A stretch of 26,929 nt of DNA from a virus. Made by a program: the position numbers and the translations under genes. Positions within the stretch are counted from its first letter, which is position 1. The number at the start of each line of letters is the position of its first letter. The notes beneath the pieces were generated by a model. The model had not been told where the DNA came from, did no database searches, and saw nothing but the letters and a program-made list of their open reading frames with translations. The stretch is taken from positions 19,608-46,536 of the IMG/VR virus record IMGVR_UViG_3300021225_000334; one strand, written 5' to 3'. Of the stretch, positions 2,595 to 15,114 are shown piece after piece.

Positions 2595-4355
2595 TTGACC
2601 ACATCCACAGGACATTTAAGTGTTGAACAGAGAGCAATTTCTATTCTTGAGAATTATCAAGGGTCAAATAACTATATCCTCAAATTAAAAAAACAAATTG
2701 AGACAAACAAGAAGTATGTCCCGACAAGAGCCCAATGTGATTATGTGATTGATTACAATTCAGTTGTTCCAAAAGTTGCAAAAAAATGGGTTGATATTGA
2801 TTCATACTTTTCTCAAAAACTTGTTGAAGACAATCCATTCATTAAAGAGCCTGATAAGATTTACGTTGAAAAGATTTTAATTGAAAAGGATAAGTCATAT
2901 CACATATGGGGTAAGATTTTTAGTGCTGAAACTATCCACGATTTTTGGATACCAAAAGCTGCGGTGATTAAACAACATACTGAAAACTTGGTTGATGTTG
3001 ATTACTCAAAATATGAAAATCGTCCACCACTTGCACACCAAAAAGAAGCTATAGAAAAGTTACTTAAAAATGATAAATTCATTTTAGCTGATGACATGGG
3101 TCTTGGTAAAACAACAAGTACGGTAATTGCTTCTTTAGAAAGTGGAGCAAATAGAGTTTTAATCATTTGTCCAGCATCTCTTAAAATAAATTGGGAAAGA
3201 GAAATTAAAAATTATACTGATAAAACAACTTACATATGTGAAGGTAAAAAGTATGAACAAGCCGAGTATGTAATTGTTAACTATGATATTCTTAAAAACT
3301 TTCATGACCCAAAGGACAAAGAAAATTCAATAATCCTTAATTCAAAATTTGATTTAGTGGTTATTGATGAAGCACATTATGTTTCAAACGCTCAAGCTCA
3401 AAGAACAAAAATAATAATGGACTTAACCAAGAACATTAAAAAACTTTGGTTATTAACGGGAACACCAATGACTTCTCGTCCAATGAATTATTATAATATT
3501 TTAAAACTTATTGATAGTCCCGTGAGTCAAAACTGGCAAGCGTATGCTATCAGATATTGTGCAGGTTATCAGTTTAGAGTTGGTGGTAAAAAGATTTGGA
3601 ATGTTACAGGAGCTTCCAATTTAGAAGAATTAAGAGAAAGAACTTCTCGTCAAATTTTAAGAAGATTAAAAACTGAAGTTTTAGATTTACCTGAAAAAAT
3701 TATGACACCCGTTTATCTTCGTTTAAAATCACGTTTATATGAAGGATTGATGGGAGAATATTATGATTGGTATAATAACAGACAAGACGAATCAAAATCT
3801 CTTTCAGTTCAGTTTACCAAACTTATGAAAGTAAGACAGGTAATTGCTGAAGAAAAAATACCAATCACAATTGAACTTGCTGAAAACATTATTGAACAAG
3901 GTAAGAAAGTTATTATCTTCAGTAACTTCACCGAACCACTTAAAAAGATACACGAACATTTTGGTAAAAAGTCTGTTTATTTAGACGGTTCATCAACTAA
4001 ACCTGCACGACAAGATGCGGTTGACAGATTCCAAGAGAGTGATAAAGTTCAAGTTTTTTGTGGTAACATGAAAGCGGCGGGTGTTGGTTTAACATTAACC
4101 GCAGGTGAAGCGGTAATTATGAATGACTTATCATTTGTACCCGCTGAACATAGTCAAGCTGAAGATAGAGCTTACAGGTATGGTCAAAAAAATTCCGTTT
4201 CAATCTATTATCCTTTATTTGAAAACACTATTGAAGGTGTTATTTATGATATCCTTATAAAAAAGAAACAGATAATTGGTACGGTTATGGGAGATATTGA
4301 AGATAATTCTGTTGATACTGTTGAACAAATACTTAACGAAATCAATAGTAAGTAA
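2595..4355 (+). CDS. SNF2-family (superfamily 2) DNA helicase/translocase
   Basis: 586 residues from TTG 2595; the in-frame stop at 2586-2588 leaves no ATG near the N-terminus. All core SF2/SNF2 motifs are present: the Q-like LAHQKEAI (about 146-153), Walker A ADDMGLGKT (about 164-172), CPASLKINW (motif Ia, about 192-200), Walker B DEAH (about 258-261), LLTGTP (motif III), FSNF (motif IV), GVGLTLT (motif V, about 496) and QAEDRAYRYGQ (motif VI, about 521-531) with two Arg residues for ATP contact. Residues 1-140 form an N-terminal region of the kind seen in small SMARCAL1/HARP-like helicases. It should move on DNA using ATP without classic unwinding, and may act in fork remodelling or recombination, as UvsW does in T4. 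It diverges from the gp14-like gene and is followed after 13 bases by the SOD fusion gene. Confidence 0.93.
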   Translation: MTTSTGHLSVEQRAISILENYQGSNNYILKLKKQIETNKKYVPTRAQCDYVIDYNSVVPKVAKKWVDIDSYFSQKLVEDNPFIKEPDKIYVEKILIEKDKSYHIWGKIFSAETIHDFWIPKAAVIKQHTENLVDVDYSKYENRPPLAHQKEAIEKLLKNDKFILADDMGLGKTTSTVIASLESGANRVLIICPASLKINWEREIKNYTDKTTYICEGKKYEQAEYVIVNYDILKNFHDPKDKENSIILNSKFDLVVIDEAHYVSNAQAQRTKIIMDLTKNIKKLWLLTGTPMTSRPMNYYNILKLIDSPVSQNWQAYAIRYCAGYQFRVGGKKIWNVTGASNLEELRERTSRQILRRLKTEVLDLPEKIMTPVYLRLKSRLYEGLMGEYYDWYNNRQDESKSLSVQFTKLMKVRQVIAEEKIPITIELAENIIEQGKKVIIFSNFTEPLKKIHEHFGKKSVYLDGSSTKPARQDAVDRFQESDKVQVFCGNMKAAGVGLTLTAGEAVIMNDLSFVPAEHSQAEDRAYRYGQKNSVSIYYPLFENTIEGVIYDILIKKKQIIGTVMGDIEDNSVDTVEQILNEINSK

Positions 4356-4356
4356 G

Positions 4357-4364
4357 TATTTATG
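4357..4364 (+). promoter_or_regulatory. Candidate late promoter element TATTTATG
   Basis: TATTTATG starts one base after the helicase stop codon and ends four bases before the SOD-fusion ATG. No minus-strand gene lies downstream of it, so here only the sense reading makes sense. The short spacing would give a nearly leaderless transcript. Confidence 0.35.
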
Positions 4365-4368
4365 ATTA

Positions 4369-5886
4369 ATGAAATCATTAAATTTAGTATCGGAATCATT
4401 AGTTAGTCGTATATTAGGTGAGGATACTCAACCTGAAACCAAATTTTTTATTAACGAAATGAAAACAATTGGTATTGATAAATTACCATATGGATACGCA
4501 TCATTAAGAAGATTTATTGACCCTGAAACAATGAAGTTTCATTATCAGAAACATTACAAAGGGTATGTCAAAAAATTAAATTCAGCTCTTCGTAAAAAGG
4601 ATTATGGTGATGTTGAATTAGAAAACATTGTAAAACAAATATCAAAGTATAACACAACAATAAGAAATAACGCAGGTGGAGCATTTAACCACGCTTTATT
4701 TTGGAAGATGTTATCACCTACACCGCAAAAACCAAATGGTGAAGTATTTCAAAAAATAGTTAAACAATTTGGAACGTACCGTAATTTTAAAACTAAATTT
4801 GAAGAAGTTTCAAGAAAAAAATTTGGTTCAGGATGGTGTTGGTTAGTTTTAACTGATACAGGTAGGTTGAAAGTTATGTCCACTTCAAATCAGGATAATC
4901 CACTTATGAATATAATAAGTAAAGGTGGTTTTCCGTTGTTAGGTTTAGATTTGTGGGAACATGCTTATTATTTGAAATACCAAAACAAAAGAGACGAGTA
5001 TATTGAAAACTTTTGGGATGTAATTAACTGGGAATTTGTTAATGAGTTATACAAAAGTAAAACTAACAAAAATTTGAAAGAGTCTGTATCTGATAAAAAA
5101 CTTTTAATGGAACAATATAACACTTCTGATTTCGCAGATATTTTTAGTAACAACAAAGCCGTTCTTTGGAAATATAGAAAATGTATTGATAACACTTTGA
5201 AAAGTGTTATGTCAGATAAGTGGTATGAAAATAACCAATATCATCATGGTTCCGCTTCAGGCATTTACAACTATGAAACAGAGGGTCGTTCAGTTATTAA
5301 TAAATTGAACACAAATTATATTGGATTTAAGATTTTAGTTGAGGATATTAACATTGTCTTACAAAAATTAAATCAACCAAAATTAGAATTCATTGGTGTA
5401 ACTCCTGAAAAACAAATCCAAGAAATTGATAGATTTTGTTCAGTTTTAAAAACATACGGATTTGGAAAAAGAATATTTGAAGGTTCCAAAACTTTAGATA
5501 AGATTATGTCTCTTTTAAATAGAACACACAAAAAAGGTGGTGACCTTGAGGCATATGTTGCAAATAAAATCAACAAAGAATTTGATGATAAAACCGCAAC
5601 TCTTATAGGTAGTTTAGGTTCCAAAGAAGATTTCGCAGGAACTGACTTAATAGTAAACTTTGATAATAAAATACAATCCGCTCAAGTAAAACCTATTTTG
5701 AGTATGGAAGTTATTGAAGGTTTTTATCACATTAAAATCAAAGGGTTTGTTAAAAAGTTCAATACCGACCTATTAATTTTTTCTAACTTAAATGAACCTG
5801 TATATATTTTCAAAAATGAAAATGTTGATTTTAGTTCAAGTTTATTTAAAATCCCAACACAAGATTTAATTTATACTGTGAATTGA
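4369..5886 (+). CDS. Manganese-type superoxide dismutase fused to a PD-(D/E)XK nuclease-like domain
   Basis: 505 residues. Residues about 35-230 are a complete Fe/Mn superoxide dismutase. Metal ligands are His58 (FHYQKHYKGYV), His108 (FNHALFW), Asp194 and His198 (DLWEHAYY); gateway Tyr66 is kept. Gly104 and Gln175 (STSNQDNPLM) are the Gly/Gln pair typical of manganese rather than iron enzymes. The reaction would turn superoxide into peroxide and oxygen. Residues about 390-445 read GGDLEAYVANKIN, then GTDLIVNFD and QSAQVK: Glu394, Asp426 and Gln439-x-Lys441 fit a PD-(D/E)XK nuclease core with Gln in the Glu place, as in Mrr-like enzymes. The 230-390 linker is unrecognised. About 30 N-terminal residues precede the SOD core; MKSLNLVSESLVSRILGED could be a capsid-targeting leader. 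It lies beside the gp13-like gene with late-type elements on both sides. The SOD call is near certain, the nuclease call moderate. Confidence 0.9.
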   Translation: MKSLNLVSESLVSRILGEDTQPETKFFINEMKTIGIDKLPYGYASLRRFIDPETMKFHYQKHYKGYVKKLNSALRKKDYGDVELENIVKQISKYNTTIRNNAGGAFNHALFWKMLSPTPQKPNGEVFQKIVKQFGTYRNFKTKFEEVSRKKFGSGWCWLVLTDTGRLKVMSTSNQDNPLMNIISKGGFPLLGLDLWEHAYYLKYQNKRDEYIENFWDVINWEFVNELYKSKTNKNLKESVSDKKLLMEQYNTSDFADIFSNNKAVLWKYRKCIDNTLKSVMSDKWYENNQYHHGSASGIYNYETEGRSVINKLNTNYIGFKILVEDINIVLQKLNQPKLEFIGVTPEKQIQEIDRFCSVLKTYGFGKRIFEGSKTLDKIMSLLNRTHKKGGDLEAYVANKINKEFDDKTATLIGSLGSKEDFAGTDLIVNFDNKIQSAQVKPILSMEVIEGFYHIKIKGFVKKFNTDLLIFSNLNEPVYIFKNENVDFSSSLFKIPTQDLIYTVN

Positions 5887-5909: not shown

Positions 5910-7040
5910 ATGAATACAATAATCGCAGAACCTTACAGAAGTCAACTTTATACAAAAGTTAGACACATATTAGGAGCACCAATTCGTTCAATTGAATTAG
6001 AGGACGAACAAATGGACTCAATTTTGGAATTTGCTATTGGGGATTATTCTCAATACGTACAAGATTGGTTGATTGAATCACAATGGACTTCATTATATAA
6101 TTTAAATTTAGATACACAATCTTTATCACGAGCATTTGTAACTAAAAGTTTAGATTATGAAAACAGATATGCTCAAGCCTACTCTAAAATAGTTGGTTTA
6201 CAATCAAGTCCTCTTGGAGATTGGGTTCTTAAAAAAGACTATATTACTTTAGTTCCTAATCAACAAATTTATGAAATTCCAGCAGGTCGTGAAATTAATG
6301 AATTGTTATGGTTCACACCTTCAGTATTAAATAATGTATTATTTGACCCATGGAGTTTTGGGGCTTTAGGTGGTTATGGGATGGGTGGACCGGCAGGATA
6401 TTCACAAATGGGATATACCGGCTCATATTTTATGATGCCAGCATTTGACATGTTATTAAGAATGCAAGAGATTAATATCCAAAGAAGAATTATCGGAGGT
6501 GATTTAACTTATAGAATTACAGGATTACCTAATGGTAAAAAGGCAATTCATTTAATGCAAACTCCAGGTGGTAAATTTGACTTTGGGAATTCTTCATTAA
6601 GACAATCACAAATTTGGTATTGGTATTATGATGTCGGACCCGAAGATAGAGACGCTTGTTTAGCAGCAAATCCTGATATTATTAAACTTCCTTCAGATGT
6701 TCCTATGAACTCAATTGCTTGGGCAGACTTAAATGAGCCTGCACAACAATGGGTTAGAAGATATTTTGTTGCAGGATGTAAAGAAACATTATCAAAAGTA
6801 AGAGGAAAATATTCAGGTAATTTAAAAACACCTGATTCTGAATTAACGATGGATTACGCTACATTAGCGACTGAAGGTAAAGATGAAAAAACAAAATTAA
6901 TTGAAGAATTAATTGGTGCTGATGGTAGATTAACAAGATTAAGACCTGAAAAAATAATGGAACGTGAAGCATTACTTGCTGAAAATCTTAACAAACAAAT
7001 GAAGTTTAGAGCGTTTCCAAGAAATATGTATGTAATTTAA
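5910..7040 (+). CDS. Neck/head-completion protein (gp13-like)
   Basis: 376 residues. The start (YTKVRHILGAPIRSIELEDE, then QMDSILEFAIGDYSQYV) follows the same pattern as T4 gp13, which has LRRLGAPIINVELTPDQ and a helix ending in EYHF. Further on, QQIYEIPAGREINELLWF precedes a Gly/Met/Tyr-rich loop (about residues 150-172) that T4 gp13 also has. Near the C-terminus WVRRYFVAGCKETLSKVRGKY parallels the gp13 helix [20 protein letters not shown]. gp13 attaches below the portal after DNA packaging and receives the tail. Unlike T4, the gp13-like gene lies on the opposite strand to the gp14/15/18-like genes and is separated from them by the helicase and SOD genes. The small virion-like gene follows after four bases. 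Confident for family, though sequence drift is large. Confidence 0.8.
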   Translation: MNTIIAEPYRSQLYTKVRHILGAPIRSIELEDEQMDSILEFAIGDYSQYVQDWLIESQWTSLYNLNLDTQSLSRAFVTKSLDYENRYAQAYSKIVGLQSSPLGDWVLKKDYITLVPNQQIYEIPAGREINELLWFTPSVLNNVLFDPWSFGALGGYGMGGPAGYSQMGYTGSYFMMPAFDMLLRMQEINIQRRIIGGDLTYRITGLPNGKKAIHLMQTPGGKFDFGNSSLRQSQIWYWYYDVGPEDRDACLAANPDIIKLPSDVPMNSIAWADLNEPAQQWVRRYFVAGCKETLSKVRGKYSGNLKTPDSELTMDYATLATEGKDEKTKLIEELIGADGRLTRLRPEKIMEREALLAENLNKQMKFRAFPRNMYVI

Positions 7041-10265: not shown

Positions 10266-13103
10266 TTAAGGTAATTTCTCAATTCTAATTTTGTTTTCAG
10301 CTGTAAATGTTCTACCCGAGAATGAATAAACACTTTCACCTGCATAATCAACAGTTTGATTAACCCCATTACAATCAACATAATTTAAAGTCAAAGTAGG
10401 TGGTGTTGTGTGACAATATGTTGTGGCTTGGAAATTATAACAACTTGTAGACGAATAAACACCCAAATCAATTAAGTCAAATCCATCAATAGATGCTGGA
10501 CCTGAAATCCATCTAGGTGGATAACTAGCATATGAAATAACCGTCATATAACCAATATCAGTAAGATTTCCTAATGTTTGAGTAACATATTCACCAAGAA
10601 TATTTCTATATTCAACAACCATACTTGAGACTGAACAATCACCGTCTTTTTCATTACCAATTACATACATTCTTAACGGCTCAGCTGGTGATGGTGATGG
10701 CGTTATACTTAGTGTTGGTGTAACAGTAGGTGTAGGTGTTAATGTAGGAGTAACACTAGATGTGATTGTTGGGGTTGGTGTAGGTGTTAGTGTGGATGTG
10801 GTGGTTGGTGTTGGGGTAAGAGTTGAAGTATTAGTAGGTGTCAGTGTAGATGTATTAGTAGGTGTAGGTGTTATAGTTTCTGTTGGTGTTGGTGTTGTAC
10901 CAATTGTAGCGGTGACTGATGGTGTTGGTGTATTTGTTGGTGTTAATGTAGGTGTCGGTGTCGGTAAACTTGGTATTACACAAGTTAAAATAAATGTTTG
11001 GTCATCCTCAATCAAATACAAATAAAAATTATTATAACAACAATTTGGTATAGTTGTGTTATTAACAGTATACGGAAAACTTTGACCTGATGTAATTAAA
11101 TGTCTTGGGTCATTCTCTGATACTTCATAATATAAATTAAATGTACGATTAGCAAAAGTTTCAGAACTAAAAGTTAAGTTATTTCCTGAAACTATTATAC
11201 AAATATCATTAATTAATCCATCTGAACAATCAGGACAACCATAATCAAAAAGTAAAAACGGACTTTTAAGTATATCAAAATTGTGTATAACTTCAGGATA
11301 ACTTAATGGTTCAGTATACATTCTAAATTGTGAAATTGCCCCATCAAAAGTTCCACCAAAAGTTGGTTCTAAAAATATATCAGTCGTTAAACCTGACAAT
11401 GATGTACCAGATAAAGTTTGATTTGGCATTACTTCAGGGTCTTGAATGTAAGTCAATCCTGTAAGTGTAGTTGGACATCCCGTGAATGTTAAACTTTCTC
11501 TCAAACCCTGTGTACCACCACCCCACGAAATGTTAAATGGAACCCCAAGTTGTTTTTCTTTTTCAGTGTTTAACGCTCTTGGGATAACTTCTTCAAAACC
11601 ATTAATTACATAAAATAATCTTCCGTTAATATAAATTTTTAATACACCCAATCTGTCTTCTCTTTCAATTAACCATCTTTCATTTAGATTAACAATTTCT
11701 ACTTGTTCTGCTGGAGGAGAACCTTCTTGTGTTATGGGTGGTTGAATAAGTAAAATACTATTATTTGATAAACTATCAACATATTCTGTATCACTAATTA
11801 AACCTAATCCACCTCTATAATATAAATCACACGTATCAAAGTAAGTATTTCTTTCCCACACACAATCAACCAAAATCCAGTGTTCCTTTGTTGTGTAGTC
11901 AGCATTTAAATTTTCACAATAATCAAAAATTTGATTTGTTGAACAATATTCAGTAATTGTATAACCTGTTTGATATGTTATACCTGTTGTTGGACAAGTT
12001 CCTGTAGTTACACATCCACCTGTTAAAGTTAAAACTTTCACACAAACTTTTGGATTTTTAGGGTCGCCCGATAACCTTAATGAAAATGAATTTGACATTG
12101 AATCATATAACGGGTTTTTGTCACCATTTGGAACTTCATTATTTGAAGTACATCCACAATTACAATCAGTATTATGTTGTACTGTATATAATAAAGGTTC
12201 ATAAACTTCTACGCATCTTGAGTTTGTTACCCCTGTGTTTGAACACGCGCAAGTTTCTAAACAACCTAATGTACTTGTAACTCTTGTATATCCACTGTCT
12301 GACAATGGAGAACCTGAGGCGTGATGATAAAATTTGTTTTCAGCTCTTGCTCCAAAATAGAAAAATGTATTATTGTTTTCAGGATAAGTTAAATTTAAAG
12401 TTGTTTGAGATGATGTCGGAGCAAATTCATCAACATATCTTGGTCTAATTAACATTTCTGCGGTCCATCCTTCATTAGTTCTAGTAGGAAATGTTTCGTA
12501 GTCATAACCAAACAATTTAAAAAACCCTTGATAAAATCCACCGTACAATTGATTATAATATGTAATAGTTAAACCAGATTTTGAGACCATATTATAAACA
12601 GTTTCTTTTGTGTTTCCTGAAAATCTTTCATTAGGTAAATTAGTATAACCAGTTACTTGAAATAATTTTGTTCTCCTATCAAAGTGATATCTATCCCATT
12701 TACTTGACCCTGTGAATAAACCCATAGTGTAATTAATAGTTTCGCCAGTCATTTGTGGAACTAACCCATTATCAATACCCGTTAATCCAATATCACATAA
12801 TGTAGAAGCTGTTAAACAATCTAAATCTTGATTAAGTGGATTATAATAATTTAATGAAACTAAAGTATTACCTGACAAAAATTGTCCGTAATTAATTGTT
12901 AGTTCTTGTGAAGAAAGTGGATTATTTAAATCAAAATAAATAGGTAACCTATTACCATCATTGTAACCAATAAGTTGGGTAGAAAATACTACCTCTTCAT
13001 TATAATCTCTTTCATCTGATGCTAAACAAATGTCAAAAATTTTAGGTACTGGTTTGATGTACCACTTTTTAAAATTGAACTGATTTATATTCTGTTGAGC
13101 CAT
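10266..13103 (-). CDS. Large fibre/adhesin-like virion protein with LamG-like domain and Thr/Pro-rich linker
   Basis: 945 residues. Two stretches fit the strands of a concanavalin/LamG jelly roll: WTAEMLIRPRYVDEF with a later FFYFGARAENKFYHH, and LGVLKIYINGRLFYVINGFE with GTFDGAISQFRMYTEPLSYP. Between them is a Cys-rich insertion (CLETCACSNTG, CNCGCTSN and more), perhaps a disulfide or metal-binding patch. After a CPDCSDG turn and a beta-rich segment comes a mucin-like linker (about residues 711-808) of Thr, Pro and Ser, then a 135-residue Cys-containing C-terminal domain. There is no signal peptide. The layout suits a tail- or head-bound fibre that binds host glycans. It is transcribed toward the polymerase gene and diverges from the small-gene operon across a 47-base promoter region. 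The exact virion location is unknown. Confidence 0.75.
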   Translation of the reverse strand: MAQQNINQFNFKKWYIKPVPKIFDICLASDERDYNEEVVFSTQLIGYNDGNRLPIYFDLNNPLSSQELTINYGQFLSGNTLVSLNYYNPLNQDLDCLTASTLCDIGLTGIDNGLVPQMTGETINYTMGLFTGSSKWDRYHFDRRTKLFQVTGYTNLPNERFSGNTKETVYNMVSKSGLTITYYNQLYGGFYQGFFKLFGYDYETFPTRTNEGWTAEMLIRPRYVDEFAPTSSQTTLNLTYPENNNTFFYFGARAENKFYHHASGSPLSDSGYTRVTSTLGCLETCACSNTGVTNSRCVEVYEPLLYTVQHNTDCNCGCTSNNEVPNGDKNPLYDSMSNSFSLRLSGDPKNPKVCVKVLTLTGGCVTTGTCPTTGITYQTGYTITEYCSTNQIFDYCENLNADYTTKEHWILVDCVWERNTYFDTCDLYYRGGLGLISDTEYVDSLSNNSILLIQPPITQEGSPPAEQVEIVNLNERWLIEREDRLGVLKIYINGRLFYVINGFEEVIPRALNTEKEKQLGVPFNISWGGGTQGLRESLTFTGCPTTLTGLTYIQDPEVMPNQTLSGTSLSGLTTDIFLEPTFGGTFDGAISQFRMYTEPLSYPEVIHNFDILKSPFLLFDYGCPDCSDGLINDICIIVSGNNLTFSSETFANRTFNLYYEVSENDPRHLITSGQSFPYTVNNTTIPNCCYNNFYLYLIEDDQTFILTCVIPSLPTPTPTLTPTNTPTPSVTATIGTTPTPTETITPTPTNTSTLTPTNTSTLTPTPTTTSTLTPTPTPTITSSVTPTLTPTPTVTPTLSITPSPSPAEPLRMYVIGNEKDGDCSVSSMVVEYRNILGEYVTQTLGNLTDIGYMTVISYASYPPRWISGPASIDGFDLIDLGVYSSTSCYNFQATTYCHTTPPTLTLNYVDCNGVNQTVDYAGESVYSFSGRTFTAENKIRIEKLP
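10683..10973 (-). repeat. Hexamer-like repeat tract coding the Thr/Pro linker
   Basis: About 290 bases made largely of GGTGTN and GTTGGT units (plus strand) encode alternating Thr-Pro, Thr-Leu-Thr-Pro and Asn-Thr-Ser-Thr units. An eight-residue unit (TPTNTSTL) is seen twice in a row with near copies after it. Such tracts can change length by slippage. They usually form extended, stiff linkers and are common O-glycosylation targets. Confidence 0.8.
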
Positions 13104-14431: not shown

Positions 14432-14725
14432 ATGGCTTCAAAAATTCCGATTGATTTAAATCAACCAGCAAATACTTTAAGCGCAATCGCAGATAAAGTA
14501 AGAAAAGATTTGGTAGTTAAAAATGATTACCAATTATCTAAAAATGAATATGGTGTAACAAATGCCGATGCAATCTCTGATGGGGATAATAAAGGTAGAG
14601 GTACAGGAGTATTTTTAGATATATTTAATGGAGGTACTTCAACTGACCAAGTTACTAAAGTTGATAATATAAAGTTAAATAAATACAGCCCAAAAAATCC
14701 ATATAACTCACCTTCAACAGAATGA
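14432..14725 (+). CDS. Small polar protein of unknown function
   Basis: 97 residues starting MASKIPIDLNQPANTLSAIA. It has one likely helix (residues about 14-30), then Gly, Asp, Asn and Ser-rich segments (DGDNKGRGTGVFLDIFNGGT) with low predicted order. No family recognised. It overlaps the next gene by four bases (ATGA). The composition recalls small structural proteins, but no function can be given. Confidence 0.7.
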   Translation: MASKIPIDLNQPANTLSAIADKVRKDLVVKNDYQLSKNEYGVTNADAISDGDNKGRGTGVFLDIFNGGTSTDQVTKVDNIKLNKYSPKNPYNSPSTE

Positions 14726-15114
14726 AGCTTTACAACGTAATAAAACAACTTATTTTTGAAGCTAGTAGCGAAGAAATAACTAATGCAATTAAAAATAGAC
14801 ATTTGGTTACAATTTACTACAATGGTAAAGATAATGGTGGTAAAGGACTTCGTGTTATTGAACCTTTTTGTTACGGAACCTCAAAAAGAGGAAACAAAGT
14901 AATTAGAGCTTGGGAGAGAGAAGGAGCGTCTCACACCTCACAAATAGGTGACCAACCGTTACCGGGATGGAGATTATTTAGGGTTGATAGAATTGGTAAC
15001 TTTTCAGTAGACCCAAGAGATAAATTTGACGTAGTCAGACCAAATTATAATCCTGACGATAAAGGAATGATAGGATTAAAAGTTTGTACAAAATTTGAAT
15101 TAGAAAATGAATGA
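14722..15114 (+). CDS. Stand-alone WYL-domain protein with capsid-leader-like N-terminus
   Basis: 130 residues. After residue 17 it follows the WYL pattern: an opening helix (ITNAIKNRHLVTIYYNGKD), an RVIEPFCYG strand, a basic turn, an aromatic strand (KVIRAWEREG) and the closing WRLFRVDRIGNFSV. WYL domains are SH3-like beta folds that bind nucleic acids or nucleotides and often sit beside a DNA-binding domain in regulators of phage defence. Here no helix-turn-helix is attached. The first 14 residues (MKLYNVIKQLIFEA) resemble the T4 capsid-targeting leader MKTYQEFIAEA, including the I-x-E/A site cut by the prohead protease. With its place in a late-type operon this suggests a packaged internal protein; that is inference. 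It overlaps both neighbours by a few bases. Confidence 0.75.
   Translation: MKLYNVIKQLIFEASSEEITNAIKNRHLVTIYYNGKDNGGKGLRVIEPFCYGTSKRGNKVIRAWEREGASHTSQIGDQPLPGWRLFRVDRIGNFSVDPRDKFDVVRPNYNPDDKGMIGLKVCTKFELENE

Follow-up and report, generated by a model that had tools for sequence, protein, structure and literature searches.

The SOD-nuclease gene and its recurrence

The window, by which we mean the whole 26,929-nucleotide stretch of DNA analysed here, belongs to a 46.5-kb IMG/VR record that is itself a fragment. On its plus strand, positions 4369-5886 form a single uninterrupted frame of 505 codons plus stop, the product of which has a superoxide dismutase (SOD) domain at its N-terminal end and a nuclease domain at its C-terminal end. 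A SNF2/UvsW-like helicase gene (2595-4355, plus strand; Pfam and PHROG) lies upstream, and a gene for a neck or head-tail adaptor protein (5910-7040, plus strand; phrog_211, head-tail adaptor) lies downstream. The same fusion is found at the same syntenic spot, with uvsW-like helicase, SOD gene and neck gene in that order, in dozens of independent freshwater contigs of T4-related phages; the helicase precedes the SOD gene at all 37 scorable loci, and the neck gene follows it at 41 of 43.

Thirty-five dereplicated sequences, each from a separate contig, carry the intact fusion, which is therefore the product of neither chance nor mis-join; an assembly artefact, considered as a candidate explanation, is ruled out on the same grounds. 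Shortened forms occur in two dereplicated relatives, one interrupted by a stop codon (L099) and the other by the end of its contig (L053). Direct search of IMG/VR for relatives of the C-terminal part returned 35 loci, and an alignment search at least 444 matching stretches. An earlier, sequence-only reading of this DNA had looked to recurrence across phage genomes as a check on the fusion, and this recurrence is now established. The same reading knew of no described SOD-nuclease fusion, which holds for the searchable literature but not for the databases, as UniProt entry A0A6J5L953, already deposited and named only "superoxide dismutase", has identical architecture. Our literature search found neither a SOD-nuclease fusion nor a SOD in a phage virion, although this is weak evidence because subscription papers were partly out of reach.

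The phage and its probable host

Larger relatives of the window encode a capsid protein of the gp23 type, which in its best segment shares 28% identity with T4 gp23, and a Peptidase_S77 prohead protease, with a bS21 ribosomal-protein gene adjoining on the opposite strand. The gp21-type prohead protease, counted in relatives and not in the window's own record, is present in six of nine relative records, the remaining three being fragments. This layout matches that of bS21 phages that infect Bacteroidetes in freshwater (PMC9723584), and Flavobacterium phages are among the cultured phages with the most closely related capsid proteins. As the SOD domain likewise resembles Bacteroidota enzymes (see below), the host of this T4-related phage is probably a freshwater member of the Bacteroidota. 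Elsewhere in the window, a 945-residue protein encoded at 10266-13103 (minus strand) contains an extended region of Thr-Pro-rich repeats and has a weak match of lectin-like type; it may serve at a surface or in adhesion.

The N-terminal domain is a manganese-type SOD

Residues 36-226 (4474-5046, plus strand) form a Mn-type SOD domain according to Pfam, two profiles of which score above the cut-off (Sod_Fe_N at residues 36-116, 3.3e-23; Sod_Fe_C at residues 122-226, 2.2e-40), and according to the nearest solved relatives, which are MnSODs. The four metal ligands (His58, His108, Asp194 and His198), Tyr66 and the Gly104/Gln175 pair were correctly numbered in the sequence-only reading, and all seven residues are invariant across the 35 dereplicated relatives. 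The attributes by which a Fe/Mn SOD of the Mn type is recognised, namely both Sod_Fe domains, three His and one Asp, the Tyr and the Gly/Gln pair, are all present; the N-terminal domain is an intact Mn-type SOD with predicted dismutase activity.

The nearest solved structure is the MnSOD of Sphingobacterium sp. T2 (PDB 6gsc, 5a9g), an exported-type enzyme from the Bacteroidota with the same active site; bacterial exported-type MnSODs differ from the phage protein in having no C-terminal nuclease, and many of their leaders are signal-peptide-like and do not end in L/I-x-E. More broadly, Bacteroidota supply most of the bacterial SODs nearest to the phage domain, which are about 50% identical to it. 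In a tree of SOD domains every phage form falls in a single clade, within which the nuclease must have been gained or lost several times, at least three of these events being forced by well-supported branches. Many of the nearest bacterial SODs (L227-L306) carry twin-arginine or other signal-like leaders, and given these leaders the phage SOD may derive from an exported host form.

The C-terminal domain is a predicted PD-(D/E)XK nuclease

A fold search with the whole chain gave SODs among the matches listed, and the C-terminal part was therefore modelled and searched separately. This part comprises residues 253-505 (5125-5883, plus strand), with a helical N-terminal half and a PD-(D/E)XK core at about residues 374-505. 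Searches of Pfam, PHROGs and PADLOC, and a tblastn search of phage records, with the C-terminal 276 residues of the window protein found nothing significant; a sequence profile of the C-terminal part found no match in the PDB, and the corresponding parts of relatives gave weak scattered matches only. The identity of the domain thus rests on motif, model and fold.

The sequence-only reading had noticed Glu394, Asp426 and Gln439-x-Lys441 in the order of a PD-(D/E)XK nuclease (codons 5548-5550, 5644-5646, 5683-5685 and 5689-5691, plus strand), and alignment, model and fold search all bear this out. The four residues are invariant in the 35 dereplicated relatives, among which identity to the window in the C-terminal part falls to 28%; together with Gly390, Gly417, Asp421 and Gly424, likewise invariant, they make up eight of the 14 invariant columns of this part. 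AlphaFold, supplied with the relatives' alignment, gave a confident model (pLDDT 87, pTM 0.80) in which Glu394 lies in a long core helix, Asp426 opens a strand and the QxK motif is on the next strand. Structure prediction followed by fold search had been set beforehand as a check on the nuclease assignment, and the best PDB matches are indeed PD-(D/E)XK enzymes: the homing endonuclease I-Ssp6803I ranks first (probability 0.99, E = 0.011), followed mainly by Hjc resolvases; RecU and MGME1 rank further down, and unrelated low-probability matches are interspersed. The Foldseek E-values against the PDB are modest for the nuclease part, 0.011 being the best, but the assignment stands because several families match independently and the catalytic residues fit. 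With I-Ssp6803I and Hjc/RecU the phage domain shares the core fold and the order E, D, QxK; it differs from them in its extra helical half, and sequence identity is very low.

With the core fold modelled and E, D and (D,E,Q)xK ordered and conserved, the C-terminal domain is, on the combined evidence of alignment, model and fold search, a PD-(D/E)XK nuclease for which cleavage activity is predicted. Its closest viral fold match is a deposited 501-residue 'superoxide dismutase' from a phage not yet in culture, which carries the same fusion and shares 76% identity with the C-terminal part. No second copy of the nuclease was found in the window or in relative G001. The BFVD model of A0A8D9CCA0, an uncharacterised 1113-residue protein from an uncultured phage of marine origin, aligns with the nuclease part over its full extent at 20% identity, and the protein is possibly a larger marine version of it.

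Prohead-protease motifs precede and separate the two domains

In T4, the IP proteins enter the head by means of short N-terminal propeptides, or capsid-targeting sequences, and gp21 cleaves after L/I-X-E (PMC9026906). Residues 1-30 of the window protein (4369-4458, plus strand) are a candidate for such a propeptide, ending FINE30/M31, where a slash marks the bond that would be cut; an additional L/I/V-x-E site, VSE9/S10, lies within it. In all 45 dereplicated members the approximately 30 residues preceding the SOD end in FINE, FLTE, LITE or similar, with L or I at P3 and E at P1 (for L063, in which the residues that follow diverge, this was judged by eye). A candidate propeptide ending in L/I-x-E, one mark of an internal head protein of the T4 type, is thus found throughout, although in the metallopeptidase-like forms described below the segment is internal rather than N-terminal.

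A second candidate site, LLME248/Q249 (Glu248 codon 5110-5112), lies in the linker between the domains (residues 230-252; 5056-5124, plus strand). Of 36 linkers, 28 carry the motif [LIVY][LIV]xE[GSAQ], where shuffled sequences give 1.0, and the remaining eight lack its strict form; of 12 control stretches elsewhere in the protein, 11 have none and the remaining one has a single occurrence. In the model, pLDDT drops below 50 only at residues 1-40 (all but two of them) and 234-251. The residue at P1' is mostly Met at the first site, Gln in the linker of the window and Ala or Ser in the capsid protein.

T4 gp23 is cleaved at FLTE65/A. In the capsid protein of the phages studied here, LINE/A or LINE/S aligns with this site (BLASTP and MAFFT). 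The linker of L078 reads MKYIITE/G, and several separate small proteins of G001 start MKYIITE/S or MKKFIITE/S; N-terminal sites of this kind are over-represented in that genome, where 11 of 214 proteins have one and shuffling gives 3.0. These matches need to be weighed with some caution, as L/I-x-E is a short motif. Within the window, a small WYL-domain protein (14722-15114, plus strand) has the N-terminus MKLYNVIKQLIFE/AS, which looks like a capsid-targeting sequence of T4 together with a site for the prohead protease, and is a second candidate virion cargo.

A putative late-expression signal

The sequence TATTTAT (4357-4363, plus strand), which is late-promoter-like, lies 5 nt before the start codon of the SOD-nuclease gene and is shared with structural genes in relative G001. 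There it is approximately 11-fold over-represented just upstream of genes, and is found ahead of the genes for neck, scaffold, protease and SOD-nuclease as well as tail sheath- and tube-like genes (judged by first residues); it is missing before the capsid gene and almost every gene of the adjoining sugar cluster. This distribution fits late expression from a putative promoter. The suggestion of the sequence-only reading that the product may be made late and enter the virion is now considered probable, and gains support from the sharing of TATTTAT with structural genes and from the prohead-protease motifs.

Across L134-L146 of G001 many genes, most of them structural, have the element 4-18 nt ahead of the start codon, and in the window it also occurs just upstream of 5910. 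It reads as the T4 late promoter TATAAATA in reverse complement, and could give rise to late mRNAs that are nearly leaderless.

A modular slot between helicase and neck genes

The position held by the SOD-nuclease gene has different contents in different relatives: SOD alone (about 235-260 residues), SOD with nuclease, an N-terminal, metallopeptidase-like HExxH domain with SOD, or HExxH and SOD followed by other C-termini, at least one of which is nuclease-related. Judged from these arrangements, the slot is modular. The HExxH domain (LAHEWVH or LAHEWIH), about 135 residues in length, precedes the SOD in L067, L070, L071, L084, L089, L108 and L110; its only Pfam matches are SprT-like and sub-threshold.

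The nuclease also occurs apart from the SOD. In G010 a stand-alone homologue of 318 residues (L316:1237-2190), whose N-terminus, MKITISE/G, is targeting-like, sits between the prohead protease and acidic scaffold genes; it matches the nuclease profile at E ~1e-14 and is 34% identical to the C-terminus of L108. Zinc-ribbon proteins of about 500 residues, which start MKIVITE/S or similar, carry the same PD-(D/E)XK domain at their C-terminus and have no SOD, are encoded on the minus strand a few kilobases from the SOD gene in L081, L186, L193, L198, L200, L206, L215 and L218. In G003, where the SOD stands alone, a separate and weakly related nuclease is found elsewhere. Separate nucleases of this kind would be expected if two targeted internal proteins had fused, the targeting and cleavage segment of the second being kept as the linker.

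A proposed head-packaged polyprotein and its alternatives

We consider it fairly probable that the gene encodes a two-cargo internal head polyprotein that enters the head, is cleaved by the prohead protease and leaves with the DNA, as Alt and the IP proteins of T4 do. The fusion, the domain identities, the invariant active sites, the conserved motifs, the synteny and the separate nuclease in the head operon of a relative support this at the level of sequence. From these we infer the packaging, cutting, ejection, enzymatic activities and targets, as follows. The SOD-nuclease would be made late in infection and brought into the prohead core by its N-terminal propeptide; a gp21-type prohead protease would remove the propeptide after FINE30 and cut the linker after LLME248, leaving free Mn-SOD and free PD-(D/E)XK nuclease in the head. 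Both would then be ejected with the DNA, in the manner of T4 Alt and IP proteins, the SOD clearing superoxide just as infection begins and the nuclease cutting host or rival-phage DNA. Oxidative stress can limit phage infection, as a Campylobacter phage plates more poorly on host sodB, katA and ahpC mutants (PMC8540345). Several observations count against the proposed reading: the shortness of L/I-x-E, the Met or Gln found at P1' where the capsid site has Ala or Ser, the internal propeptide segment of the metallopeptidase-like forms, the eight linkers that lack the strict motif and the modest Foldseek E-values.

An unlikely alternative, but the best of those considered, is a late intracellular enzyme that is never packaged, in which an auxiliary metabolic SOD that shields the cell and progeny DNA late in infection and a recombination or packaging nuclease, for example a Holliday-junction resolvase, are joined for co-expression only. 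The adjoining UvsW-type helicase and the Hjc and RecU resolvases among the fold matches are in keeping with such a role, as is the interpretation of viral SODs as auxiliary genes against reactive oxygen (PMC12542629); it leaves unexplained, however, the prohead-protease motif of the propeptide, the second site in the linker and the nuclease homologue inside a head operon.

Less likely still is a virion protein that is packaged and remains uncut, its linked SOD protecting the nuclease or DNA, or superoxide modulating the nuclease. A widespread and long-lived fusion with a propeptide-like N-terminal segment could be read in this way, but a conserved protease-type site lies within the low-confidence linker, SOD and nuclease occur apart in relatives, and the nuclease has been repeatedly gained or lost. 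The superoxide-linked control of the nuclease raised in the sequence-only reading finds no support here; the conserved linker site and the modular parts argue against a permanent link, and make two cargoes the more likely reading. That the C-terminal part is a mis-join, which the relatives already refute, or a decayed structural remnant resembling PD-(D/E)XK but without nuclease function, is very improbable, as the shortened forms in L099 and L053 are outweighed by 35 intact fusions with invariant E, D and QxK at C-terminal identities down to 28%, by the confident model and by the fold matches.

Relation to known systems and significance

The proposed packaged polyprotein resembles T4 Alt and IPI-III (PMC9026906) in its N-terminal segment ending in L/I-x-E, in belonging to a phage with a gp21-type protease and a gp23-type capsid, and in its late-type gene beside head or neck genes. 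It differs in that its two enzyme domains are separated by a further conserved site, and in its cargo, which is an ADP-ribosyltransferase or a small anti-restriction protein in T4 and here a SOD and a nuclease whose place in the virion is predicted. Polyvalent proteins (PMC5512222) likewise combine several enzymatic domains in a virion-gene setting with predicted injection, comparable to the two enzymes in one chain adjoining a neck gene and to the HExxH domain of relatives. Here, however, the arrangement of sites suggests cutting by the prohead protease and not by a built-in peptidase, and the window form is without a peptidase domain; SOD was not found in the text of the polyvalent-protein survey. 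If packaged, the SOD-nuclease would by analogy work like a T4 internal protein and like a small polyvalent protein. SOD has been reported in giant-virus virions (PMC9405923), but the Megavirus case is of the Cu,Zn type, in a eukaryotic virus and with no nuclease fusion.

The broader proposition, that phages of lake Bacteroidota package in the head a polyprotein of SOD and nuclease divided by the prohead protease, that its gene occupies a swappable cargo slot and that this is the first phage-injected SOD known, is in our judgement slightly favoured over its negation. If true, superoxide at DNA entry would be a real barrier to infection in lakes, worth a head-carried SOD to a widespread group of phages, and internal head proteins could be cleavable polyproteins of swappable enzyme modules. 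Propeptides ending in L/I-x-E, together with a gp21-type protease, would then provide a sequence rule for recognising injected cargo in uncultured phages, and some SODs whose genes are now classed as auxiliary metabolic would have to be considered as possible injected shields.
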